Under the pieces are notes generated by a model. That model did not search any database. It saw nothing but the letters and a program-made list of their open reading frames with translations, and had not been told where the DNA came from. Position numbers and translations under genes: made by a program. Source: Salinicoccus halitifaciens (lineage in GTDB: Bacteria > Bacillota > Bacilli > Staphylococcales > Salinicoccaceae). Taken from it: 64,000 bases of DNA. Positions 18,671-58,360 of this stretch are shown here, one piece after another. Location of the stretch: the NCBI RefSeq assembly GCF_021026095.1, contig NZ_JAJNCU010000003.1:310001-374000 (forward strand), written 5' to 3'. The first letter of the stretch is position 1; each line of letters opens with the position of its first letter.

Positions 18671-19150
18671 ATGAAAATCACTTTGATCACGGTGGGCAAG
18701 CTGAAGGAGAAATACTGGGTCCAGGCGGTGGATGAGTATAAGAAGCGGATCAGCAAGTACGCAAAAATCGAGCTCATTGGAGTCGCCGATGAAAAAGAGC
18801 CGAACAATGCCGGCGAGAAAGATATCGAACAGATCAAAAACAAGGAAGCGGACAGAATACTATCTAAAATAAAAGACAACCAGCACGTCGTAACGCTCGA
18901 GATACACGGAAGGACATATACAAGTGAAGAACTCGCAGCCGAATACCAGAGATGGATGAATACCGGCAAAAGCGACGTCGTCTTCATCATCGGCGGCAGC
19001 AACGGCCTCGGCGAAGCGGTGAAGAAGCGGAGCGACCAGGAAATCAGCTTCGGCACCCTCACCTATCCCCACCAGATGATGAAAGTCATGCTGATGGAGC
19101 AGTTATTCAGGGTGAATAAGATATTGAGGAATGAGAGTTATCATAAGTGA
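18671..19150 (+). CDS. rlmH: 23S rRNA pseudouridine-1915 N3-methyltransferase RlmH
   Basis: SPOUT-class methyltransferase that modifies pseudouridine 1915 of 23S rRNA at N3. 159 residues, full length. The C-terminal half has FIIGGSNGLGEAV and the closing YPHQMMKVMLMEQLFR segment, which form the trefoil-knot SAM site; the end NESYHK is usual. RBS AGGGAGGAAG. In staphylococci the last codons are the chromosomal attachment site for SCC elements; here they read GAGAGTTATCATAAGTGA. Confidence 0.98.
   Translation: MKITLITVGKLKEKYWVQAVDEYKKRISKYAKIELIGVADEKEPNNAGEKDIEQIKNKEADRILSKIKDNQHVVTLEIHGRTYTSEELAAEYQRWMNTGKSDVVFIIGGSNGLGEAVKKRSDQEISFGTLTYPHQMMKVMLMEQLFRVNKILRNESYHK
19133..19147 (+). other. 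SCC-type attachment site at the rlmH 3' end
   Basis: The terminal codons contain the TATCATAA core of the known SCC attB. A 14/15 direct copy occurs at 24409-24423. Confidence 0.55.
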
Positions 19151-19431: not shown

Positions 19432-20901
19432 TTACATCTCAGAAAAGTCCGGCGTTTTATATCTCGCTGTCACGACTTTCCTTCTGGTATAGAAATCCAC
19501 GCCATCTTTTCCGTTCGCATGGAGGGAGCCATAGAAGGAATGCTTCCAGCCAGAGAACGGGAACACTGCCATCGGAGCCGGCACGCCAAGATTGATGCCG
19601 AGCATGCCTGCATCAATGTTTTCCCTGAAGTAACGGACACTGGAGGCACTATCTGTAAACAAGCATGCTCCATTGGCAAATTCGGACTGGTTGGCAATCC
19701 AGACTCCTTCTTTAAGGTCCTTCACTTTAATAACGCAAAGTACAGGAGCAAATATTTCATTTTTCCATATTTCCATGTCCGTGGTGACTCCCTCGAAGAT
19801 GGTCGGTCCGATAAAGTATCCTTCATCGGATGTTCTTTCACGCCCATCCATCAGCAGTTTCGCCCCTTCTTTTTCTCCTGATTCGATATAATCGACAGTA
19901 CGTTTCTTATTTTCTTCCCTGATGACCGGTCCGAGGAAGACGTCATCATCCAAACCGTTCCCCATCTTGATGTTTTTCGCTTCATTTTTCAGCCTGTCGA
20001 TGAAATCGTTATAGATCCCTTCCTCTACAGTGATGACGGCAGCGGCCATGCAGCGCTCGCCTGCTGAACCGAATGCTGCACTGATGATATCCTTGACTGC
20101 CTGATCAAGATTGGCATCATTCAGGACCACTGTATGGTTTTTGGCCCCGGTCAGGGCCTGGACACGTTTAAGATTGTCTGTTCCTTTTTTATAAACGTAT
20201 TCTCCAACTGGCTTGGAGCCGACGAAAGATACAGCTTTAATATGTTCATTTTCCAGAATGCCGTTGACTACATCATGTGCACCGTTGACTACATTGAATA
20301 CTCCATCGGGCAGACCGGCTTCTTCCAGATATTCGACCAGCTTTTCAACGAGCAGTGGCGTCTTTTCTGACGGCTTCAGTACAAATGTATTTCCCATGGC
20401 AATGGCCATCGGGAACATCCAGCAAGGCACCATCATCGGAAAGTTGAATGGCGTGATTCCGCCGACAACACCGACAGGATAGCGGTAGCTTGTCCCTTCG
20501 ATATCCGTTGCGATGGATGAGAGAGAATCCCCCATCATCAGAGACGGAGCACCTGCTGCAAATTCTACATTTTCAATGCCTCTTTGCACTTCGCCCAATG
20601 CTTCGTTGAAACTTTTGCCATTTTCCCTGGTGATGATCTCCGCAAGCACTTCTTTATTTTCCATAAGTATCTGCTGGTATTTGAAAAGAATGCGCGCTCT
20701 TTTTGGTACAGCAGTATTACTCCAGTCATGAAACGCATCCTGGGCGGCTCGAGCGGCACGATCCAGCTCTTCCTTTGTGGACTGCGGCACGTGGATCAGC
20801 ACTTCTCTGGTCGCAGGATTCACCACATCAACCATTTCTGTACTCCTGCTCTCAATCCATTTTCCATTGATATAATTTTTTAGCACTTTTACTTCTGACA
20901 C
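19432..20901 (-). CDS. mmsA: Methylmalonate-semialdehyde dehydrogenase family (CoA-acylating)
   Basis: A CoA-dependent aldehyde dehydrogenase of 489 residues, the family length. Members convert malonate or methylmalonate semialdehyde to acetyl- or propionyl-CoA with NAD+. The catalytic cysteine lies in [11 protein letters not shown], the NAD-binding fold contains [11 protein letters not shown], and [17 protein letters not shown] is present. The start is the GTG at 20901: AGGAGG lies nine bases upstream, whereas the ATG at 20940 has no site. It is the last gene of the S-box-controlled operon. Valine or inositol breakdown genes are absent nearby, which suggests another semialdehyde source. The 280 bp between this gene and rlmH are AT-rich, with one hairpin at 19282-19308. 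Confidence 0.92.
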
Positions 20902-20968
20902 TCTGCATCCTCCTAAATTATTGTTTAATATGCATTTCACAACTGCTCTCCCACTTTAACAGTAAGAC

Positions 20969-21064
20969 CTATTTGAAGTACCATTTCCATAGGGAAAAAC
21001 CAATGATGATCAAAGCGATGATGAAACCGTACAACCATATGGAAAGCATTTCATTAATGAACAT
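20969..21064 (-). CDS. 31-residue membrane peptide, candidate symporter subunit
   Basis: The ATG at 21064 overlaps the stop codon of the symporter gene (TGATG), and GGAGGG lies eight bases upstream. It encodes 31 residues: MFINEML, one hydrophobic helix (about residues 8-25) and a basic aromatic end, KWYFK. Small single-helix subunits are known next to some SSS and NSS transporters (MetS-like and symporter small accessory proteins). Position, overlap and RBS make it convincing; the function is inferred. Confidence 0.7.
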   Translation of the reverse strand: MFINEMLSIWLYGFIIALIIIGFSLWKWYFK

Positions 21065-22566
21065 CAGGACCCTCCTTCCTCTGCAGCCCCCATCTCAGAA
21101 GACGAAGCCGACCTGAGAATCCATGAGGCGATATTGATCGTTGCGATTCCTATGAATACGGACACGGCACCCGCCGACATTGTACTCGGTATGATACCGG
21201 TGAAGTATAGAAACAGATAGGAACCCAAACCGACAAACATTGAAAGCTCCGCTGCTCTTGCCGGTGCTTTCCTTTTCGCATAGACCGCCTGGAGGATCGG
21301 CCCCATCGTTCCTGCCGCAATTCCTGAAATACCGATCCACATCACATCTCCCATATATTCCGGCGGACGGATGACGATGAGCAGGGCCAACAAGCCGATG
21401 AATGGTACAGTCAGCCTGCTGATCTGGAATGCTATTTTCTCAGCCTTTTCATCACTGACTTTCACGATATTCCGCTTGACCAGGAACTTCAGGAAGATAT
21501 CATTCGCAAAAACGGTGGAGATTGATACGAATATCCCGTCTGTCGTGGACATCGCTGCTGCAAGTATCACGACACCGAACAGAGCAACGACGATGGCTGG
21601 GAATGCCCAGATGATATAGTCCATAAGTGCCAGGTCCGCTGCACTGGCTGTATCACCCAATGCCGCTCTGCTGTAAAGTCCGCCAAACAGTACGAGTACG
21701 GATAGTGCAGCAACCACTACATAGGTTGCAATCATCTTGCCCAGGTCCTGCTCATTCTTCAGCCCCAGTACTTTATTGAACAGATGGGGGGCTGATGCGA
21801 ATGCCCATTGTATTACGATGGCACCAATCACTGCTCCAATGGAATAGAAATGCAGGGATTCCGGATTAAATACCGCAACCAGATTCTCGTTCTGTGCAGC
21901 CAATTCATGGGAAATTCCTGCAAATGTATCGGAGATTCCACCTTTCCAGAAAATTACTATGCCTGAAATAAAAATCCCTATACCTGCAATCGCCATGATG
22001 AAAGCCTGTACTGCATCGGTATAGATGTCCGCAAGCGCACCGCCGGCATAGACATATATGACTACAATCAGGGCGATGAGTAGGAGTCCGCTTGTATAGG
22101 ACATTCCAAGCAGATATTCGAATATCTTTGCACCAGCGACGAATTGGGCAGCAATGTAGAATATGTTGAAAAGAAGAATCAGTCCCGTTCCGACGCGGAG
22201 GATGTCGCTCTTATAGAAATCACCCAGCCAGTCCGGAAGGGATAGGGACTTCTGTCCATTGTTCAGCTTTCTCACCTTTTTAGCCACCATCAGTACGCCG
22301 ATCGGGCCGCCGGCGATTATCGCCAGGAACAGCCAGAGATTCGACAGGCCCCATTCATATGACCAGCCGGGGTAACCCAGAAATGTCGCAGCGCTTAAAT
22401 AGGTTGCGGCAAACGAGAATCCAAGGACATATGGTCCAAGGGTCCCGCCGCCTGTAGCAAAATCCCTGATCGACTTCATCTTTTTCGAACTCAAATATCC
22501 TACAACGAGCATCAGCACTAGAAATACGGAAAAACCGATCCATGTATAGAGTGTAATCTGATCCAT
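21064..22566 (-). CDS. Sodium:solute symporter (SSS family)
   Basis: A 500-residue membrane protein with about 13 hydrophobic segments. It opens with an extracellular N-terminus, then ATYLSAATFLGYPGWSYEWGLSNLW, whose first half (ATYLSAATFLGYPG) is the family's sodium-site helix. A further signature is the ALADIYTDAVQAFIMAIAG stretch. SSS proteins couple Na+ entry to uptake of sugars, proline, carboxylates, pantothenate or choline-like compounds. The substrate cannot be read from sequence; context with a sulfur-regulated monooxygenase suggests an organosulfur compound or its carbon skeleton. Confidence 0.9.
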   Translation of the reverse strand: MDQITLYTWIGFSVFLVLMLVVGYLSSKKMKSIRDFATGGGTLGPYVLGFSFAATYLSAATFLGYPGWSYEWGLSNLWLFLAIIAGGPIGVLMVAKKVRKLNNGQKSLSLPDWLGDFYKSDILRVGTGLILLFNIFYIAAQFVAGAKIFEYLLGMSYTSGLLLIALIVVIYVYAGGALADIYTDAVQAFIMAIAGIGIFISGIVIFWKGGISDTFAGISHELAAQNENLVAVFNPESLHFYSIGAVIGAIVIQWAFASAPHLFNKVLGLKNEQDLGKMIATYVVVAALSVLVLFGGLYSRAALGDTASAADLALMDYIIWAFPAIVVALFGVVILAAAMSTTDGIFVSISTVFANDIFLKFLVKRNIVKVSDEKAEKIAFQISRLTVPFIGLLALLIVIRPPEYMGDVMWIGISGIAAGTMGPILQAVYAKRKAPARAAELSMFVGLGSYLFLYFTGIIPSTMSAGAVSVFIGIATINIASWILRSASSSEMGAAEEGGS

Positions 22567-22581
22567 AAATACCTCCTTGGG

Positions 22582-23961
22582 TTAATATCTTTCACTTAAT
22601 GTCTTCGTCCTTTTGGCAGGGTGGTTCCCGGCAAGATATCTTCTGCCTTTTCCGAACATGTTCTCCCTAAGCGTCTCACCTTCATATTCCGTTCTGTAGA
22701 TGCCCCGTTTCTGCAGTTCCGGTACCACATGATCCACAAACTCTTTAAATGTCCCGGGCGAATAGGTCTGGGCGATGTTGAAACCGTCTGCACCGCCGAC
22801 TTCGGACCACTCTTCGATCCTATCTGCAATCTGTTCCGGTGTACCGATAAACTTCACAGTACCATTCCCCAGCCCATGATTCTTCACCGCTTCGCGCAGT
22901 GTCCATCTGCGGTCGGGGTCCTTCGTATACATGTCCAGGTTGCCCTGCACCGCCTCTGTCTCGATATCCTCGATGTACTGGTCAGGATCATATTGTGAGA
23001 AATCGATGCCGGTATGCCCGGACAGGAGGGAGGCCGTACCTTCATAACTCACATTGTTCTGAAGGTCCTCATATTTCTGCCAGGCCTCTGCCTCGGTGGC
23101 ACCGATGATCGGTAGAATCATCGGGAAAATCAATACATCATCTGCATTCCTCCCTTGGGCTATGGTGCGCTCCCTGATATCGTTCGTATAGGCTGTCAGT
23201 GCATCCAGCGAATGGTTCTTCGTGAAGACCGCCTCCGCATGCTTTGCTGCAAAATCGCGCCCCTTTGGTGATGCTCCCGCCTGGAAAAGGACTGGTGTCC
23301 GCTGAGGGGAGGGCTCCACGAGGTGTGGTCCGGGAACATTGAAGAACTCTCCCTGATGATTGATCATATGTACTTTATCAGCATCAGCGAAAATATCTTT
23401 CTCCCTGTCGTGCAGAACCGCTCCCTCCTCCCAGCTGTCTTCCCAAAGTTTATAGACCACTTCCAGAAACTCATCTGCACGATCATATCTCAGCGCCTTC
23501 GGAAGACGCCCATCGAGACCCAGATTCACCGCTTCGCTTTCCAGGTAGGAAGTGACCACATTCCAGGCCACTCTGCCTTCCGTCAGATGGTCCAACGTGG
23601 ACAGCTGACGCGCCAGGGAATAGGGTTGGGCGTAAGTGGTAGAAATCGTCGGTGCAAACCCGAGATGCTCCGTTGCAGCAGCCATCGCCGGAATCACAAG
23701 CGTTGGATCATGTGCCGGCAGCTGGACAGCATGCCGGACCGCTGCGTCATGACTGTTTCCATAAACACTGTATGTCCCCAGGACATCTGCAATGAACATC
23801 GCATCAAACTTGCCACGCTCTAGTGTCTTCGCTGTATCAATCCAGTATTTCAGCCTGTTATGTCTGGTCCCCCTGTCATTCTCATGCTTCCAGAGCCCTG
23901 TTGAATGGGGAGATGGCGAATTCTGAATAAAACCGTTCAAGTGAATTTGTTTCTTTTTCAT
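22582..23961 (-). CDS. NtaA/SnaA/DszA-family FMN monooxygenase, DmoA-like
   Basis: A luciferase-fold enzyme of 459 residues that would use FMNH2 from a separate reductase and O2. Family marks include FDAMFIADVLG, PYSLARQLSTLDHLTEGRVAWN (shown by its halves PYSLARQLS and GRVAWNVVTSYL), EPSPQRTPVLFQAGAS and the C-terminal GGADGFNIA. The length and these segments recall dimethyl-sulfide monooxygenase and related C-S or C-N cleaving enzymes. The ATG at 23961 is seven bases after GGAGG. It is the first gene behind an S-box riboswitch, so expression should rise when SAM is low. No flavin reductase is adjacent. Confidence 0.88.
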   Translation of the reverse strand: MKKKQIHLNGFIQNSPSPHSTGLWKHENDRGTRHNRLKYWIDTAKTLERGKFDAMFIADVLGTYSVYGNSHDAAVRHAVQLPAHDPTLVIPAMAAATEHLGFAPTISTTYAQPYSLARQLSTLDHLTEGRVAWNVVTSYLESEAVNLGLDGRLPKALRYDRADEFLEVVYKLWEDSWEEGAVLHDREKDIFADADKVHMINHQGEFFNVPGPHLVEPSPQRTPVLFQAGASPKGRDFAAKHAEAVFTKNHSLDALTAYTNDIRERTIAQGRNADDVLIFPMILPIIGATEAEAWQKYEDLQNNVSYEGTASLLSGHTGIDFSQYDPDQYIEDIETEAVQGNLDMYTKDPDRRWTLREAVKNHGLGNGTVKFIGTPEQIADRIEEWSEVGGADGFNIAQTYSPGTFKEFVDHVVPELQKRGIYRTEYEGETLRENMFGKGRRYLAGNHPAKRTKTLSERY

Positions 23962-23989
23962 ATACATACCTCCAGTTTGATTGAATACT

Positions 23990-24028
23990 AAAAAGCCCCT
24001 TCTTCTTAAAAGATAAGAAGAAGGGGCT
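23990..24028 (-). terminator. S-box controlled terminator
   Basis: On the minus strand AGCCCCTTCTTCTT pairs with AAGAAGAAGGGGCT and runs into TTTTT. It lies between the aptamer and the monooxygenase gene, where the riboswitch expression platform belongs. Confidence 0.9.
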
Positions 24029-24049
24029 GAATATATAGATCAAGGGTTC

Positions 24050-24153
24050 TTCTCTTATCTTCTAGCAAAATGCTACTGGAATTGGCACAGTACCGTTACG
24101 GTCTGTTGCCGAGGCTTCAAAGGGCCAGTCCCTCCACCTCTCTGGATAAGAAA
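24050..24153 (-). promoter_or_regulatory. SAM-I (S-box) riboswitch aptamer
   Basis: Read on the minus strand, the region starts TTCTTATCCAGAGAGGTGG and continues GAGGGACTGGCCCTTTGAAGCC then TCGGCAACAG (given here as its parts), the conserved SAM-I core. P1 can form between TTCTTATC (24145-24152) and GATAAGAGAA (24051-24060). A terminator follows, so SAM binding should switch off the downstream operon. Confidence 0.95.
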
Positions 24154-24181
24154 ATTCTGAATTTATTAAGTTGTAATGCCT

Positions 24182-24210
24182 AATATATATCAAAAGAAAT
24201 TATATGTCAA
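24182..24210 (-). promoter_or_regulatory. Sigma-A promoter of the S-box operon
   Basis: Minus-strand TTGACA (24205-24210) and TATATT (24182-24187) are separated by 17 bp, and the start site would fall just before the aptamer. Confidence 0.85.
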
Positions 24211-24408: not shown

Positions 24409-24423
24409 GAAAGTTATCATAAG
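24409..24423 (+). other. Second copy of the rlmH attachment-like sequence
   Basis: GAAAGTTATCATAAG here and GAGAGTTATCATAAG at 19133-19147 differ at one of 15 positions and have the same orientation, as expected of left and right att sites around an inserted segment. No recombinase gene lies between. Confidence 0.4.
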
Positions 24424-24448: not shown

Positions 24449-24477
24449 TTTAAAAGCATCTGCGACCATGGTATAAT
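24449..24477 (+). promoter_or_regulatory. Extended -10 promoter in the AT-rich spacer
   Basis: TTTAAA (24449-24454), 17 bp, then TATAAT (24472-24477) preceded by TGG. It points towards the hairpins at 24545 and 24591. Confidence 0.6.
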
Positions 24478-24483
24478 ATTACT

Positions 24484-24616
24484 ATAAGGACAATGAAGAT
24501 TGATATTGAAAGCAATTAATTCAAACAAAGAAATCACTTTTGAGTTAAGGCATGCTACAGCCTTAAAATGATAAAATATATAAGAATAGGAGCAACTCGA
24601 AAGAGTTGCTTTTTTA
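24484..24616 (+). ncRNA. Candidate small RNA of about 130 nt
   Basis: A promoter ends at 24477 and an intrinsic terminator ends at 24616. Between them lies a stem TTAAGGC/GCCTTAA (24545-24551 with 24560-24566). The terminator is AGCAACTC, GAAA tetraloop, GAGTTGCT, then six T. No open frame with a ribosome binding site fits inside. It could be a free small RNA or an attenuated leader of the genes at 24685-25472. Confidence 0.5.
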
Positions 24617-24684: not shown

Positions 24685-24774
24685 ATGAAGTTTAGTATTA
24701 TGCTCAGAAAATTTGAAGAGTCAAACGAATATAAAACATGGTTTAAACCCAAGATGAAAGAGGGAAATTTATGA
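24685..24774 (+). CDS. Short 29-residue ORF coupled to the TVP38 gene
   Basis: ATG at 24685 has TTAGGAGA nine bases upstream. The 29 residues are basic and aromatic (MKFSIMLRKF ... FKPKMKEGNL) and the stop overlaps the next start (ATGA). It may be a coupled leader peptide or the end of a lost gene; I do not recognise it. Confidence 0.35.
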   Translation: MKFSIMLRKFEESNEYKTWFKPKMKEGNL

Positions 24775-25472
24775 GTTCGGGCGAAGATCGCAATAAGATA
24801 TTTTCCATAAATTCAATAGTATCACTGGCTACTCTGGTTGTGATTGTTGCCGGGCTGTTATGGGTGAGCTTCAACCTGAACCCACCACCGCCGGAGGAAA
24901 TGCGCGAGATCATACTCGGCTACGGCTGGGCCGGGTGGCTGGTGTTCCTCGGGATCATTGCAGCGATCGCCGTCACCCCCATCCCCATATCAGTGACTGC
25001 CTTGGTGGCGGGCTCCCTCTACGGTGTAATCGGCGGGACGCTGCTCTCCCTGACCGGGGTGATGATTGGCTCCTGGATCGGTTATTGGCTGGCCCGTGTT
25101 TTGGGCAAGCGCCTGACCTTCCGGCTCCTGGGACGCCACAGTTCCCTCGTGGAGGATTACCTCAGCAATGCAGGGTTCTGGGCTTTGTGCACTGTGAGGC
25201 TGATGCCCGCCCTGCCGTACTGGCCGGTGAATTACGGTGCCGGGGCCTTGGGTATAGGGCAGTACACATTCATCTCCGCGACTTTTTTGGCCTCCCTCCC
25301 CGGCCAGATCTCCCTGGTGGCTCTGGGGGCCTTTGTAGTGAACACTTCGGTATTCAATGGAGTCGTACTAGTCATTGCGTGGCTCGCAGTATTGGCTTTG
25401 ACGTGGGTTTCCTACCGCTACTGGCGCAGTACAGAATCTGATAAAAACGATTCAGAAGCAGCAGAGGAATAG
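24771..25472 (+). CDS. TVP38/TMEM64 (DedA-like, VTT domain) membrane protein
   Basis: 233 residues with an N-terminal helix (about 14-34), several further hydrophobic segments and the VTT core: TPIPISVTALVAGSLYG, the IGSWIGYWLARVLGK amphipathic stretch and RLMPALPYWPVNYGAGALG. Relatives are thought to move lipids or act in membrane homeostasis. The coding region is clearly richer in GC than the AT-rich DNA on either side, which fits recent acquisition. The start is fixed by GAGGGAAATTT and overlap with the short ORF. Confidence 0.88.
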   Translation: MSSGEDRNKIFSINSIVSLATLVVIVAGLLWVSFNLNPPPPEEMREIILGYGWAGWLVFLGIIAAIAVTPIPISVTALVAGSLYGVIGGTLLSLTGVMIGSWIGYWLARVLGKRLTFRLLGRHSSLVEDYLSNAGFWALCTVRLMPALPYWPVNYGAGALGIGQYTFISATFLASLPGQISLVALGAFVVNTSVFNGVVLVIAWLAVLALTWVSYRYWRSTESDKNDSEAAEE

Positions 25473-52908: not shown

Positions 52909-55230
52909 TTATTCCTGTATCGGGATGCCTTCTGTAGTCACTTCTTCTGAGATGATGTATTCAAGTTCTTCGAATTGATAATGCACATGCTCAATTTCGC
53001 CTGTGAACTCGAAGTCCCCTTCATCTTCATAGGCCGGACTGACCGGATACAGGAGATCTCTGCCGACATCCAGCCCTTCAAATGCAATCTTGAACGGCAG
53101 CGTCTCGACATCAGCTTCACCGACAGGTTCGTCATTTATATATAACGTGCCTGTACCCTGATTGTCGCCGGTGTTTTCAAAGTTGTACCTGATTTCATTT
53201 GCCCCTGCCTCGATGCCGGATGAAATGGTGTAACGTTCTGCACCGTTGTTGTATTCATAATGCAGCTCGCCGTCTTGGACATAGAACGTGTAGCCGCTGT
53301 TCCTGTTTCCGAGCGCAAGCAGCACACCTTCATCGCCTTCATCCAATTCAATCGGAATCGTGATTTCATAATTACGGTCCAGGGTGAGAGGTGAGGCGGA
53401 TTCGCTCAAATGTGACATGCCTGGATAAAGCGTGAAGGACTCCCTCGCTCTTAAGTTATCTGCCGGTAAATTCCCGAGTCCGTCCAGGAAATTTTCGGAG
53501 AGCGGCAGGGCGCCGTTCTTCTCTGCCTCGACATGCCATATATCAATCAGATTATTCAACACTTCCGGATACTCATCCGAAATGTCATTGAGCTCTGAGA
53601 AATCACTGGTCTGGTCAAAGAGCTTCCACTCATCTTCTGAAAAGTCCGTTCCCGGCTCATGGACGGATACCGCTTTCCAGCCGTCATGGTAGATCGTCCT
53701 ATGGCCGCTGTGTTCAAAGTACTGGGTGTCTTTTCCTGTGAATGCCTCAGGATCATCGAAACTTGCACTGAAGCTGACGCCCGTGATCTCCATCTGTTCA
53801 GTATCGTTCATATATGCAGGCGGTTCAATGCCGAGGACATCATAAACCGTCGCCGTCAGGTCGCTGACATGTGTGAACTGGTCCCTGACCTCGCCCTTTG
53901 ATTCGATGCCTTCAGGCCAGTGGACGATCAAAGGCAGTCGTATGCCTCCGGCGTGGGTGGTGCCTTTAAATTCCTCGAATGGCGTGTTGCTGACCTGTGC
54001 CCAGCCGGCCGGATAATCACTGCCGCCCCGCTCGCCGCCGATTTCATCCATATTTTCATACATATGGTCGAAATCCTGGAGCACTTTGTTGTAGGCCATG
54101 GCCTGGTTCATCGTGCCCTGTTCCCCGCCTGAGAAGCTGGCGCCGTTATCGGAGATCAGCATGATGAGTGTGTTGTCCAGTTCACCCATATCCTCCAGGT
54201 GATTCATCAGCTTCCCGATCTGCTCATCGGTGTGGGTCAGGAACCCTGCGTAAGTCTCCATGAATCTTGCGTATAATTCCTGTTGTTCCTCATTCAGTTC
54301 ATCCCATGCAGCGATGCCGTCTGCGCGGGGCGCCAGTTCTGCGTCTTCAGGGATCACACCCAGCTCTTTCTGCCTTTCAAACCTTTCTTCCCTGATGACA
54401 TCCCAGCCTTTATCGTACTCACCTTCGTACATCTCGATATACTCTTCCGGCACCTGATGCGGCATATGCTGCGCGCCGAAACCGAGGTACATGAAGAATG
54501 GATCATCGGGACGCAGTGAGGCATGGTCGGTTATGTACTGGATGCCGTTTTCGACGATGTCTTCTGAGTAATGATAGTCTTCTACATCGGGCACCGGAGC
54601 AGGGCTGTTGTCCCTGAACAGTTCCGGACGGTACTGGTCTGAAGAATCTTCGAGGTTGCCGTAGTACCTGTGGAAGCCCCTGCCGAGCGGCCATCTGTCA
54701 TACGGGCCGGCCGGTGAAAGTTCAACGGTCGGTGTGATGTGCCACTTGCCGAGGCCGAAGTTGGTGTAGCCGTTCTCACCGAGCACTTCAGTGACGAACC
54801 CCGCTTCTTCAGGTATTTTGGCCCGGCTGTTCGGCTGACCTTCACCGAAGTCGAAGTTTGCCACATTCCCCATCCCGACAGCATGGTTGTTCCTGCCGGT
54901 CAATAACGAAGCGCGGGTGGGTGAACATACCGGCGATGTATGGAAGTTGTTGTATTTCAATCCGTTCTCGGCAATCGCATCAATGTTCTCTGTATCAATC
55001 TCGGAGCCGAAACTCCCAAGGTCGGAAAACCCGGCATCATCAAGGATGATGTACATGACGTTCGTCTTGTCTTCCGTGCCTTCCGTACCCTGATGGCCGG
55101 CACCGCCGCCTCCGGCAGCCCCTGCCGTTTCCCCTCCGAGCAGCAGAGCGGCTGAAAGTGCGAGTGTGCTGAGTTTTGCGAACTTACCGACATACTTTTT
55201 CCAAGGCTTGTCTTCTCTTTTAACGTTCAA
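52909..55230 (-). CDS. Secreted arylsulfatase
   Basis: 773 residues. A signal peptide (about 1-39, hydrophobic STLALSAALLL) leads to a type I sulfatase: metal ligands D64/D65 (ILDDAG) and the formylglycine site C102-S-P-T-R followed by ASLLTGRN. Later come GKWHI, PHQVPEEY and ISDNGA. A C-terminal beta-rich extension (about 600-770) looks like a carbohydrate- or laminin-G-like module. It should remove sulfate from an external ester. Activation needs the formylglycine-generating enzyme encoded just upstream. Confidence 0.93.
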   Translation of the reverse strand: MNVKREDKPWKKYVGKFAKLSTLALSAALLLGGETAGAAGGGGAGHQGTEGTEDKTNVMYIILDDAGFSDLGSFGSEIDTENIDAIAENGLKYNNFHTSPVCSPTRASLLTGRNNHAVGMGNVANFDFGEGQPNSRAKIPEEAGFVTEVLGENGYTNFGLGKWHITPTVELSPAGPYDRWPLGRGFHRYYGNLEDSSDQYRPELFRDNSPAPVPDVEDYHYSEDIVENGIQYITDHASLRPDDPFFMYLGFGAQHMPHQVPEEYIEMYEGEYDKGWDVIREERFERQKELGVIPEDAELAPRADGIAAWDELNEEQQELYARFMETYAGFLTHTDEQIGKLMNHLEDMGELDNTLIMLISDNGASFSGGEQGTMNQAMAYNKVLQDFDHMYENMDEIGGERGGSDYPAGWAQVSNTPFEEFKGTTHAGGIRLPLIVHWPEGIESKGEVRDQFTHVSDLTATVYDVLGIEPPAYMNDTEQMEITGVSFSASFDDPEAFTGKDTQYFEHSGHRTIYHDGWKAVSVHEPGTDFSEDEWKLFDQTSDFSELNDISDEYPEVLNNLIDIWHVEAEKNGALPLSENFLDGLGNLPADNLRARESFTLYPGMSHLSESASPLTLDRNYEITIPIELDEGDEGVLLALGNRNSGYTFYVQDGELHYEYNNGAERYTISSGIEAGANEIRYNFENTGDNQGTGTLYINDEPVGEADVETLPFKIAFEGLDVGRDLLYPVSPAYEDEGDFEFTGEIEHVHYQFEELEYIISEEVTTEGIPIQE

Positions 55231-55272
55231 ATGTATTTCCCCCTGTTTTATGATTGAGCTCTGAAAGTCTTC

Positions 55273-56178
55273 CTAAACATCCGACACACAACGGAATCCT
55301 ATGTTCCCCGAAGCGCTGTCCGGTGTGTTCTGTGATCTTGCGGCCACCCTGTAGCGGTTGCAGTAGGACTCGTGGCAAAGGTATGATCCCCCTTTCATCA
55401 CACGGAATTCACCGGATTTCGGACCCTTGGGGTCCTTTCTTCCTCCCCTTTTATGCACGCTTTTGGAAAACCGGTCCGAGCACCACTCCCAGACGTTGCC
55501 TGTGATGTTGTACAGGCCGTAGCCGTTGGGAGGGAACGAGACGGCAGGCGCAGTCCCCTTATAGCCGTCTTCAGCCGTATTGTTTTTCGGGAATTCCCCC
55601 TGCCATATATTGCATAAATGTTCGCCTTCAGGCGTGAGTTCATCGCCCCACGGAAATTTTTTGCGCTCGAGACCGCCGCGCGCGGCGAATTCCCATTCAG
55701 CCTCCGTCGGCAGCCTTTTCCCGGCCCATTTTGTGTAGGCATTGGCATCATTCCAGGATACGTGCACGACCGGGTGGTCCATCCTGTTTTCGATATTGGA
55801 ATCCGGGCCTTCCGGATGTTTCCAGTATGCCCCCTGAACGACGAGCCACCACGGCGTCTGCTGAATCATCCTTTTGATCTTCCTCTTCGTCCGTTCACTG
55901 ACGAACTGATAAAAGACGAAGGACCATCCGAATGCCTCCGCCTCCGTCACATAACCCGTCTCCTCCACAAACGCCTGAAACTCCCGGTTGGTGACGGTAT
56001 GTACATCCATATAAAACGGGCTGACTTCAATTTTCTTCGAAGGCCCTTCCCCGTCCTGCGGATAGCCCTCCTTGCCGTTGGTGCCCATGAAGAAGCGCCC
56101 GCCGGGGATGTAAATCTGATCATTACTTTTTGTTCTTGGTGAAGCGGGCTTTATTTCCTCCACGGGTGTCTGGGTCAT
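55273..56178 (-). CDS. Formylglycine-generating enzyme (sulfatase-modifying)
   Basis: 301 residues, SUMF1/FGE fold. YIPGGRFFMGTN opens the domain, and the two active-site cysteines lie in SYLCHESYCNRYR, followed by AARSQNTPDSASGNIGFRC; both are kept as in true copper-dependent FGEs. It oxidises the sulfatase Cys to formylglycine in the cytoplasm before export. The ATG at 56178 follows GAGAGG; an in-frame GTG at 56247 is less likely. It is first in a two-gene operon with the sulfatase. Confidence 0.92.
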   Translation of the reverse strand: MTQTPVEEIKPASPRTKSNDQIYIPGGRFFMGTNGKEGYPQDGEGPSKKIEVSPFYMDVHTVTNREFQAFVEETGYVTEAEAFGWSFVFYQFVSERTKRKIKRMIQQTPWWLVVQGAYWKHPEGPDSNIENRMDHPVVHVSWNDANAYTKWAGKRLPTEAEWEFAARGGLERKKFPWGDELTPEGEHLCNIWQGEFPKNNTAEDGYKGTAPAVSFPPNGYGLYNITGNVWEWCSDRFSKSVHKRGGRKDPKGPKSGEFRVMKGGSYLCHESYCNRYRVAARSQNTPDSASGNIGFRCVSDV

Positions 56179-56398
56179 TGTACCTCTCACACCCGAAATA
56201 TCTTTTCTGTTCACGCTGCAGCATGCTGATCGCTCTATCGCTTCCACTTCCTTTCGAATAACTTATTGAAAACGCTATCAATTCAGATAATTCAAATAAA
56301 AGCATACTCATCATCAGTTGGCATATCTACGTATGTTTAGTACTAAAACATTAATAATATTAGTACTTTTAATTCTAATATGTAAAAAGAGTACAAAT

Positions 56399-56425
56399 TA
56401 AAAAAGCTTCCCGAAGGAAGCTTTT
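56399..56425. terminator. Terminator of the alcohol dehydrogenase gene
   Basis: AAAAGCTTCC and GGAAGCTTTT with a CGAA loop; T-rich on the minus strand. Confidence 0.88.
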
Positions 56426-56435
56426 CTCTCTATAT

Positions 56436-57404
56436 TTACTTTTCATCATCATAAATGGCGACCAGCCTGCCCTGGACTTCGCCGCGGGCGAGTCTCTCGA
56501 TCCCTTCCGGGATTTCGTCAGGGGTGATCTCCGACAGTGTCGGTGACAAATCTCCTGAAGCCATCAAGTCATAGATTGCTGCGATGTCTTCCTTGTTGCC
56601 GCCGACTGAAGCCAGCAGCTGTTTTTTATTGACGATGAAATCCGTCACGTTGATCGTCGTCTGCAGTTTACCCATGCCGACCAGCACGACCGTGCCTCCT
56701 GGTCTCACTGTCTCGAGGGCTTTGGAAGTCGTGACGTCAAATCCTGCATAGTCGACGACAAGGTCCAGCTCTTTATCGGCGAGTTCCGAAATATCGGATA
56801 CAACCTCTTTGGCACCGATTTTTTTCGCCAGTTCCTGGGCCCTCTCAGAAGTATCGACTGCATAGATGTCTTCGATACCCTGGGCGACTGCTGCCTGCAG
56901 TGCGAACTGACCGAGGCCGCCGATGCCGATCAATGCAATCTTCATGCCCTTTTCGGCTTTACCTCTTGTGAACAGTGCGTGGTAGGATGTCATACCGGCA
57001 TCCGTCGCTGAAGCAGCCTGTTCGATGGATAATTCATCCGGCACCGGAACGAGGTCGGATGCAGGCGCATGGATGTGCGTACCGAATCCGCCGTCGTAGG
57101 CATAGCCCGGTGCAAGACCAGACGGCCCGGTCGGACATATGGCCACGCGGTCGCCTTCCTTGAAGTCCGTCACACCTTCACCGACTTCGATGATGGTGCC
57201 TGCGTTCTCATGTCCCATGATGACCGGGGCATTCATTAAAGCCATCCAGCCTTCGTCTTCCATCGTACCAACGTCAGAGTGGCATAAGCCCACCGCCCCT
57301 GTCTTGATGACGACGTGGTCCTTCTCCGCTTTCGGAGTCTCTTTTTCGACCATTTCGAGTGGTTCGTGTGTTTTAGTGAATTGCCAACCTTTAATTTCAA
57401 ACAC
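56436..57404 (-). CDS. Zinc-dependent alcohol dehydrogenase
   Basis: About 320 residues. The catalytic zinc ligands are in GLCHSDVG and GHENAG; the NAD(P) fold has GIGGLGQFALQ. The structural zinc lobe with four cysteines is absent, so it belongs to the shorter class. It oxidises or reduces an unspecified alcohol/aldehyde. The long frame upstream is a shadow of the pirin gene. The family normally begins MKxWQFTKTHEP; here that position is an ATT codon at 57395, with AGGAAG eight bases upstream. The GTG at 57404 is the nearest standard start but overlaps the Shine-Dalgarno sequence. Confidence 0.88.
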   Translation of the reverse strand: MFEIKGWQFTKTHEPLEMVEKETPKAEKDHVVIKTGAVGLCHSDVGTMEDEGWMALMNAPVIMGHENAGTIIEVGEGVTDFKEGDRVAICPTGPSGLAPGYAYDGGFGTHIHAPASDLVPVPDELSIEQAASATDAGMTSYHALFTRGKAEKGMKIALIGIGGLGQFALQAAVAQGIEDIYAVDTSERAQELAKKIGAKEVVSDISELADKELDLVVDYAGFDVTTSKALETVRPGGTVVLVGMGKLQTTINVTDFIVNKKQLLASVGGNKEDIAAIYDLMASGDLSPTLSEITPDEIPEGIERLARGEVQGRLVAIYDDEK

Positions 57405-57554
57405 TTCCTTTCTGATGATGAATTTTATAAGATTCAACACTTTAATGATTCCCTTAATCTGTTTTTTAAAACATACAGGCGGGTGACCTACGGGGCTTGA
57501 TTGTCCGGGAAAAGGGAATAACAAATTAAAGCCTATCATTTTAAGGAGGATATT

Positions 57555-58319
57555 ATGCATATATTGAGAAATGACCAGTACTTCCGCTACGGGGATGAAG
57601 ACTTTCAGGTGCACACGAAGCGGCCGGGCCTGATATTCCAGGATTTCGACCGTGAAGATTATGCCTTCGGTCCTTTGAGCCGGATCGATCATGTCCATCT
57701 GTCGCAGGATTATCTCATAAAGATGCACCTGCATCATAATGATGAAATAATGAGCTACATTTACAAAGGTGAAATGCGCCATCGCGACACGGAGGATAAT
57801 GAAGTGGTGCTGACACCGGAGCGGCTGATGGTGATGAACGCCGGCCGTGAGTTTTATCATGAGGAATCCACACCGGATGCGGGCAATGAAATGCTGCAGA
57901 TACTGATTCGTCCGGAAAAGGAGGACCTCGAGCCCGATGTGCAGTTCTGGGAGCGTGAAATCAGGGATGATGCGGAATGGAATCTGATTGCGGGGCCTGC
58001 CTCCATGGATCCGCCAATGCGCATAAGGAATGAAGTGGCAGTGTTCGACGTGCATGGGAAGGCGGGTGACGAACCCGCCCTGCCCCGGGAAGAAGCCATG
58101 ACACCATGGCTCTATGTAATGGACGGCAGTGTTGAGATCCCGGGAGACGCGCTTAATAAAGGTGATGCAGTCACCGGCAGCCGTGAAGAATTGACATCGA
58201 TCAAACTGAAGGAAGACTCGACGCTTGTGCTGTTCCTCGTCGACCTGGATGCACCGATGACATTGAAAGGCAATTTCAGTGGCCATAAGAGGAATAATAT
58301 GAAAAGATATGGGAAATAG
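57555..58319 (+). CDS. Pirin-family cupin protein
   Basis: 254 residues, two cupin domains. The first carries the metal-binding set in KMHLHHNDEIMSYIYKGEM (HxH, late His and Glu). Pirins include quercetinases and redox-linked regulators; no specific role is assigned. AAGGAGG precedes the ATG. The second cstB copy begins 41 bp after the stop in the same direction. Confidence 0.85.
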   Translation: MHILRNDQYFRYGDEDFQVHTKRPGLIFQDFDREDYAFGPLSRIDHVHLSQDYLIKMHLHHNDEIMSYIYKGEMRHRDTEDNEVVLTPERLMVMNAGREFYHEESTPDAGNEMLQILIRPEKEDLEPDVQFWEREIRDDAEWNLIAGPASMDPPMRIRNEVAVFDVHGKAGDEPALPREEAMTPWLYVMDGSVEIPGDALNKGDAVTGSREELTSIKLKEDSTLVLFLVDLDAPMTLKGNFSGHKRNNMKRYGK

Positions 58320-58360
58320 GATCACACTGCCCAATCAAAAAATCCAAGGAGTGCATTCAA

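Follow-up and report, generated by a model that had tools for sequence, protein, structure and literature searches.

An SCC-site operon under SAM-I control as a candidate scavenging unit for 3-thio acids

Luciferase-type monooxygenases can hydroxylate a carbon beside sulfur, which yields a thiol and an aldehyde; DmoA converts dimethyl sulfide (DMS) into methanethiol and formaldehyde. Compounds of the 3-thio-propionate class arise from the breakdown of dimethylsulfoniopropionate (DMSP) and of methionine. Among enzymes that dispose of semialdehydes, IolA serves inositol breakdown and malonate semialdehyde decarboxylase (MSAD) haloacrylate breakdown. Here we describe an operon in a 64,000-nucleotide stretch of the Salinicoccus halitifaciens assembly (the window), in which an S-adenosylmethionine (SAM) riboswitch of class SAM-I precedes genes for a flavin mononucleotide (FMN)-dependent monooxygenase, a sodium:solute symporter, a 31-residue peptide and a semialdehyde dehydrogenase. 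The reading that we favour, with moderate confidence, is that of a SAM-repressed organosulfur scavenging unit which would convert a 3-thio acid into a thiol and malonate semialdehyde. The same products are reached from the 3-methylthiopropionate skeleton by the DMSP pathway DmdA-DmdBCD: in the excerpt of PMC3660561, DmdD turns methylthioacryloyl-CoA into methanethiol and malonate semialdehyde, and the latter should break down into acetaldehyde and CO2. For DMS monooxygenase, the passage available from PMC13352529 gives formaldehyde in its text and dimethyl sulfoxide as the product in its figure legend. Among the titles and abstract openings listed in literature searches, none describes the present operon or a 3-methylthiopropionate flavin monooxygenase.

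The operon, its leader and its orthologues

An initial annotation of the window, made from the sequence alone, had outlined this operon, and all of its parts and coordinates were confirmed:

24210-19432 (-): operon span, from promoter to end of dehydrogenase
24182..24210 (-): sigma-70-type promoter, TTGACA-17-TATATT, consensus match 11/12
24052..24152 (-): SAM-I aptamer (RF00162), 92.9 bits, full length
23994..24028 (-): intrinsic terminator forming the expression platform, a 15-pair hairpin followed by T's
22582..23967 (-): NtaA/DmoA-family FMN-dependent monooxygenase, 461 aa (TIGR03860, 575 bits; LadA/DmoA in the PDB; tree)
21064..22566 (-): SSS-family sodium:solute symporter, 500 aa (PF00474)
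20969..21064 (-): conserved hydrophobic 31-aa peptide (23/23 loci, codon-position-3 bias)
19432..20940 (-): IolA-like CoA-acylating (methyl)malonate-semialdehyde dehydrogenase, 502 aa (TIGR01722; PDB 1t90)

The aptamer that the annotation had proposed was searched for with RF00162 and scored 92.9 bits, where the gathering threshold is 44.4, covering model positions 1-108; the promoter and the terminator were likewise present. Over the 881 bases scanned there are nine promoter-like sites, compared with 3.2 in shuffled sequences, and three terminator-like sites, compared with 0.5. The fold of the leader has a z of -5.5, none of 200 shuffles being equally stable. Read by eye, the 5' arm of the terminator can pair with the 3' strand of helix P1 of the aptamer, and this pairing is expected to be the antiterminator of the SAM-I design. 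At low SAM the antiterminator would form and the operon would be transcribed, a direction of regulation that we take from the SAM-I architecture and standard SAM-I logic.

We surveyed 157 genomes of the order for orthologues of the monooxygenase (E <= 1e-220) and of the symporter (E <= 1e-150). The former occurs in 21 genomes and the latter in 20, all among the 21, and in all 20 the symporter adjoins the monooxygenase; the monooxygenase of the genome without symporter (G069) is 69% identical. The 23 distinct loci compared below are the window, ten from genus g6, three from other Bacillota families (L024, Oceanobacillus; L025, Salinibacillus; L026, Bhargavaea) and nine which we call staphylococcal by kinship (family f4, genus g14, to which we give the name Staphylococcus on that ground). 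The host genome itself falls, within the family of Salinicoccus, in genus group g1, and g6, which holds the Salinicoccus loci, is its sister genus. L022 and L023 duplicate the genomes of L138 and L140 and were counted once; two copies that have no symporter match, L229 (a second copy in G130, 68%) and L228 (in G069), were left out. The order monooxygenase-symporter-peptide is kept in 23 of the 23. At L140/L023 (Salinicoccus carnicancri) the symporter is split into two overlapping frames, by damage to the gene or by a sequencing error. AbgT-family and M20-type genes lie downstream in part of the g6 loci.

A SAM-I element precedes the operon in 18 of the 23 loci: in all 14 non-staphylococcal loci (Salinicoccus and Bacillaceae types) and in four of the nine staphylococcal ones (L224-L227). 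In each of the 14, a hairpin was seen by eye between the aptamer and the first gene; in 13 a run of no fewer than four T's comes after it, the hairpin of L026 having no T-run. In L224-L227, also by eye, a hairpin covers the Shine-Dalgarno sequence between the aptamer and the first gene. These same four loci have, directly upstream, a gene for the O-acetylhomoserine sulfhydrylase MetY behind a SAM-I element of its own (the L224 copy scores 676.8 bits with TIGR01326; those of L225-L227 were named by eye). The role in sulfur supply that the annotation had deduced from the riboswitch is supported by both observations, and the presence of MetY suggests a thiol or sulfide as the sulfur product. The remaining five staphylococcal loci (L219-L223) carry a conserved ACTATTCTTAT element 195-209 bases upstream of the monooxygenase start, and a palindrome surrounds this element in L228; it is perhaps the operator of another sulfur regulator where SAM-I is missing. 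That it is a CymR operator is offered as a lead. L024, L025 and L026 have an additional gene for a two-domain CMD-family protein (by Pfam in L025, by eye in the other two), which in L024 and L025 stands between SAM-I and the monooxygenase.

Immediately after the symporter, in all 23 loci, comes a member of a peptide family of 31-44 residues (FVNEMLSIWLYG) that shares the motif F[VI]NxML[ST][IV]W[LI]YG. In the window the start of its reading frame overlaps the symporter stop codon, and its product has no Pfam or NCBIfam match; the L025 peptide begins with I where the others have M. When 30 codons were compared between all pairs of 14 loci, the first, second and third codon positions differed 792, 335 and 1448 times. 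We regard the gene as real on this pattern of substitution and on its conservation in the 23 loci. Its product reads by eye as one membrane helix and is a probable accessory subunit of the symporter.

The last gene and malonate semialdehyde

The core is followed by different last genes in different loci. In all nine staphylococcal loci a gene for a protein of 129-136 residues, homologous to MSAD, lies directly 3' of the peptide. The four of these nine that were scanned all match PF14552, and one that was compared with the PDB found MSADs only (best E 1.9e-34). When 13 MSAD homologues, the nine staphylococcal last genes and four from other contexts, were aligned with 2aag, all 13 kept Pro1, Asp37, Arg73, Arg75 and WSF, which we take to be the catalytic residues of MSAD. 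The staphylococcal last gene is predicted to encode an enzyme that decarboxylates malonate semialdehyde.

A CoA-acylating dehydrogenase is the last gene in the window and in L025 only, that is in two of 23 loci, so that not all of the four genes which the annotation sought to explain together are part of the core. The window enzyme scores 583.9 bits with TIGR01722 (cut-off 448.5) and 834.7 bits with PDB 1t90, and is 73.6% identical to IolA of Bacillus subtilis. It keeps the motifs RGIENVEF and GERCM, presumably the two carboxylate-binding Arg and the catalytic Cys of MMSDH/IolA; its true start is probably internal, since the alignment with IolA begins at residue 16. The two operon dehydrogenases are 66.8% identical to each other, whereas the window enzyme is 85.4% identical to a copy in G012 (L231) and that of L025 78% identical to copies beside PRK07678-type aminotransferases (L230, L232). 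They therefore probably represent two lineages, recruited separately. Thus, unrelated enzymes for one compound, malonate semialdehyde, occupy one operon position.

During the breakdown of inositol an aldolase releases malonate semialdehyde, and IolA turns this into acetyl-CoA. MSAD homologues (E <= 1e-10) were found at 22 places in 20 of the 157 genomes; judged by 1.5-kb flanks, nine are in the operon, four beside a class II aldolase (L257, L258 and L259 by HMM, L260 by eye) and nine elsewhere. At L259 the adjacent gene is an iolD fragment, with 223.7 bits over the C-terminal part. IolA and MSAD thus apparently interchange in two contexts that have malonate semialdehyde in common. The window dehydrogenase is the single TIGR01722 match of the host genome at E <= 1e-130. 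An inositol role for it was considered and rejected, as no iolD in the host genome passes the cut-off (233.5 bits against 715).

The proposed reaction and its rivals

Among solved structures the monooxygenase, which scores 575 bits with TIGR03860 (cut-off 279.7), is closest to LadA (453 bits, ahead by only 0.9 bits) and DmoA (452), followed by HcbA1 (367), DszA (344), riboflavin lyase (285), YtnJ (274), a nitrilotriacetate (NTA)-like enzyme (239), an ethylenediaminetetraacetate (EDTA) enzyme (174) and SfnG (59). The dimethylsulfone monooxygenase model of SfnG (TIGR04021) gives 84.4 bits, under its cut-off of 382.95. We built a tree of 113 rows by a quick method without bootstrap, with SH-aLRT supports and DszA set as outgroup; L105 and several references form long branches in it, and the references do not include YxeK, YtnJ, NtaA or SfnG. 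The 23 core and staphylococcal rows form, with the paralogues L228 and L229, a clade of 25 rows (SH-aLRT 99); it is united with the L018-type paralogues (88) in a 32-row Bacillales clade. LadA, DmoA and HcbA1 are on the opposite side of the tree (91), DmoA in a 79-row branch. An identity as DmoA orthologue was rejected on this ground (DmoA is outside the 32-row clade at supports of 91 and 88), and an identity as LadA on context. The annotation had called the enzyme a DmoA/NtaA-type monooxygenase, of a group that cleaves C-S bonds: in PDB bits it does fall on the LadA/DmoA side, far from the NTA and EDTA enzymes, but the tree does not group it with DmoA. Charged residues specific to the clade, for example Lys249 and Lys156 (counted from frame residue 2), may bind a carboxylate. 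The true start could be the second Met, residue 3.

Uptake and C-S cleavage of a three-carbon-acid thio compound, which the annotation had suggested, remains the best reading, and we propose the following course. The SSS symporter and its small peptide partner would import a small carboxylate with sulfur on carbon 3; the presence of a symporter alongside the monooxygenase makes a charged substrate likely. The monooxygenase, using FMNH2, would hydroxylate the carbon next to sulfur in R-S-CH2-CH2-COO-, the formula that a substrate needs if the aldehyde product is to be malonate semialdehyde, and the hemithioacetal would collapse into a thiol and that semialdehyde. The thiol would pass to O-acetylhomoserine sulfhydrylase and give methionine or homocysteine. 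In the window and in Salinibacillus the IolA-type dehydrogenase would turn malonate semialdehyde into acetyl-CoA and CO2; in staphylococci the decarboxylase would yield acetaldehyde and CO2; at other loci the compound would decay unaided. We put 3-(methylthio)propionate, which would release methanethiol, first among candidate substrates because MetY points to a thiol or sulfide and because DmdD yields the same products; 3-mercaptopropionate and thiodipropionate come next. The fuller proposal, that relatives of Salinicoccus, Bacillaceae and staphylococci share a CoA-independent, O2-dependent route that takes up 3-(methylthio)propionate, or a similar 3-thio acid, by symporter and peptide and splits it in one step, with direct sulfhydrylation to methionine, SAM-I control in most carriers and up to three independently recruited means of malonate-semialdehyde disposal, is tentative, and we regard it as possible rather than probable.

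Several observations weigh against the scavenging of 3-thio acids by this operon. Neither dehydrogenase nor decarboxylase stands beside the core in 12 of 23 loci, and the ten g6 genomes have no TIGR01722 match (E <= 1e-130) and no MSAD (E <= 1e-10) genome-wide; the carbon step is therefore not obligatory and may be a side matter. The context of nine of the 22 MSAD places (1.5-kb flanks) could not be linked to malonate semialdehyde, and 11 further genomes of the order have an MSAD homologue without a monooxygenase orthologue. At the gathering score no SAM-I was found in L219-L223, five of the nine staphylococcal loci. LadA, an alkane oxygenase, scores level with DmoA. The closest solved relatives of the symporter are remote (36 bits at best), and the substrate assigned to it is hypothetical. 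Finally, none of the operon genes was recognised as that of a flavin reductase.

The loci and g6 genomes that have neither enzyme are what one would expect if the last gene were a hitchhiker, the core acting on another thioether, such as an S-alkyl cysteine derivative of the kind handled by the YtnJ/YxeK pathways, and dehydrogenase and decarboxylase serving other substrates. This explanation also accommodates the 85% relative of the window dehydrogenase in G012, a genome without an orthologous monooxygenase, where the copy adjoins a gene for a 402-residue protein without NCBIfam match and, by eye, ABC-transporter genes. We consider it rather unlikely, given that enzymes for a single compound seem to have been recruited three times at the same position; moreover, neither an N-acetyltransferase nor a deacetylase of YtnJ type was recognised inside the operon, although some of the g6 loci have M20 hydrolases nearby. 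The exchange of last genes is explained just as well by 3-sulfopropionate or 3-sulfinopropionate as substrate, from which an SsuD-style reaction would release sulfite and the same malonate semialdehyde, and an SsuA-like sulfonate ABC protein is indeed under another SAM-I of the host genome (L015). However, the named sulfonate enzymes are distant from the monooxygenase (28.6 to 49.3 bits, and 98.9 for the SsuD-like chain 7e36_A, against 453 for LadA and 452 for DmoA), and the MetY gene upstream of four loci argues for a thiol or sulfide product rather than sulfite, which leaves a sulfonate or sulfinate substrate quite improbable.

A DMSP or DMS operon, with a DmoA-like monooxygenase and a dehydrogenase finishing acrylate or 3-hydroxypropionate, would suit the host, which its kinship with Salinicoccus makes a probable halophile, and DmoA is one of the two closest solved enzymes. 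DmoA nevertheless lies in another branch of the tree, DMS is small and neutral and should need no symporter, and MSAD as the alternative last gene is better accounted for if malonate semialdehyde is formed directly. Read by eye, no profile search having been made, the loci showed neither a recognisable DMSP lyase nor a 3-hydroxypropionate dehydrogenase; since neither enzyme was recognised and direct formation of malonate semialdehyde is simpler, the acrylate/3-hydroxypropionate route of the initial annotation is not needed. We judge this explanation likewise quite improbable. An alkane oxygenase operon of LadA type, unrelated to sulfur, has in its favour that LadA is the top PDB match by its 0.9 bits; with SAM-I before 18 of 23 loci, MetY as neighbour in four, a soluble-solute symporter in all 23 and LadA outside the clade, it is scarcely credible.

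Genomic setting and comparison with known systems

The operon lies between rlmH and a membrane protein gene, flanked by the two exact copies of a direct repeat:

18671..19150 (+): rlmH, flanking gene and insertion site (NF000985, 216.9 bits)
19136..19147 (+): direct repeat AGTTATCATAAG, exact copy 1, inside the 3' end of rlmH
24412..24423 (+): direct repeat AGTTATCATAAG, exact copy 2, beyond the operon promoter
24771..25472 (+): 233-aa membrane protein, TVP38/DedA-like by eye, no NCBIfam match; right flank

Under a first-order model 0.0007 exact matches to the 12-bp AGTTATCATAAG would be expected on both strands of 5.6 kb, for a word that was chosen afterwards. We take AGTTATCATAAG in rlmH to be the attachment core of the staphylococcal cassette chromosome (SCC) type. 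The 233-residue membrane protein gene marks the right flank, since in two g6 genomes (L236, L237) it adjoins rlmH directly, at 85 to 90 bp. In other genomes of the host's own genus, rlmH is followed by restriction-modification-like genes in G012 (L233, by eye), by about 10 kb of other genes and then the same right flank in G011 (L235), and by other genes in G015 (L234), the right flank being seen in L235 only. Neither symporter (E <= 1e-150) nor monooxygenase (E <= 1e-220) was found in the other five genomes of the genus, G013 among them being about 80% complete. The host genome has no match to PF07508, the Recombinase domain that the ccr serine recombinases of SCC presumably carry, and a self-mobile SCC element was rejected because no large serine recombinase was found. 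A plasmid origin was also tried (E <= 1e-100) and dropped, all 339 records being below 60% identity. The arrangement fits an islet at the SCC site that is not a mobile SCC. At its right edge, a promoter-like site with TG before the -10 (24449-24477) and a terminator-like hairpin (24588-24613) were noticed; 24449-24613 is possibly a small RNA or a leader.

The host assembly (2.68 Mb, 11 contigs) holds 11 SAM-I elements, compared with 5-8 in each of the five remaining genomes of its genus and 5-11 in those of g6. Three of the four host TIGR03860 monooxygenases over the cut-off are directly behind SAM-I (the window, L012 and L018). Further targets, by eye, are metNPQ-like sets (L014, L021), metK (L016) and O-acetylhomoserine-sulfhydrylase-like genes (L015, L017); at L015 the PLP enzyme was tested with Pfam, and the SsuA-like protein and an acetate-CoA ligase with NCBIfam. 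The SAM-I of L020 has no obvious gene in the next kilobase. Two targets are unusual and may mark further organosulfur routes: at L013 SAM-I precedes a thiolase (Pfam), an SSS symporter (by eye) and an acetoacetyl-CoA synthetase (NCBIfam acetoacetate-CoA ligase), and at L019 an enolase-superfamily protein (Pfam), a tripartite-type transporter (by eye) and an amidohydrolase (NCBIfam). It is pure speculation, by analogy, that at L013:8803-13865 conversion of a 3-thio-butyrate to acetoacetate would explain the acetoacetyl-CoA synthetase and the thiolase. A formylglycine-generating-enzyme-like gene (55273-56247) lies beside a large exported protein in the window (52909-58334), and a similar one beside a sulfatase-like gene and SAM-I at L020, both by eye. 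As far as the excerpt of PMC3766115 goes, its survey had already noted that various Bacillales genes under SAM riboswitches are probably concerned with cysteine or methionine metabolism or transport; the regulon itself is therefore no surprise, and the proposed pathway is.

If the proposal is true, an aerobic one-step C-S cleavage joins the known fates of 3-thio-propionates and is tied to methionine supply in Gram-positive bacteria, and a substrate class is proposed for a monooxygenase clade known here by its family name alone; a conserved partner peptide of 31-44 residues is proposed for an SSS transporter. Like SCC elements, the operon sits at the rlmH insertion site with a TATCATAA-containing direct repeat; unlike them, it is an insertion of 5.3 kb with metabolic cargo only and no large serine recombinase genome-wide. 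The monooxygenase shares family TIGR03860 with DmoA (452 bits to 6ak1), as well as the proposed chemistry beside sulfur, but belongs to a separate clade and has a symporter and SAM-I control. LadA, the long-chain alkane monooxygenase, is of the same family (453 bits); the window enzyme differs from it in its separate clade and in a regulation and neighbours that concern sulfur. The last genes resemble IolA (1t90; 73.6% identity for the window dehydrogenase) and MSAD (2aag; 1.9e-34 for the staphylococcal gene), yet here they are part of a sulfur operon and not of inositol or haloacrylate breakdown. The DmdBCD route depends on activation with CoA, on an acyl-CoA dehydrogenase and on a crotonase; no genes for these were recognised in the window operon, for which one step with FMNH2 and O2 is proposed. 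The catabolism of 3,3'-thiodipropionate in Variovorax paradoxus TBEA6 is similar in that the routes proposed in the excerpt of PMC6370202 pass through malonate semialdehyde and a semialdehyde dehydrogenase; those proposals are CoA-dependent, include a 3-mercaptopropionate dioxygenase and concern a carbon source, whereas here the SAM-I control points to sulfur supply.

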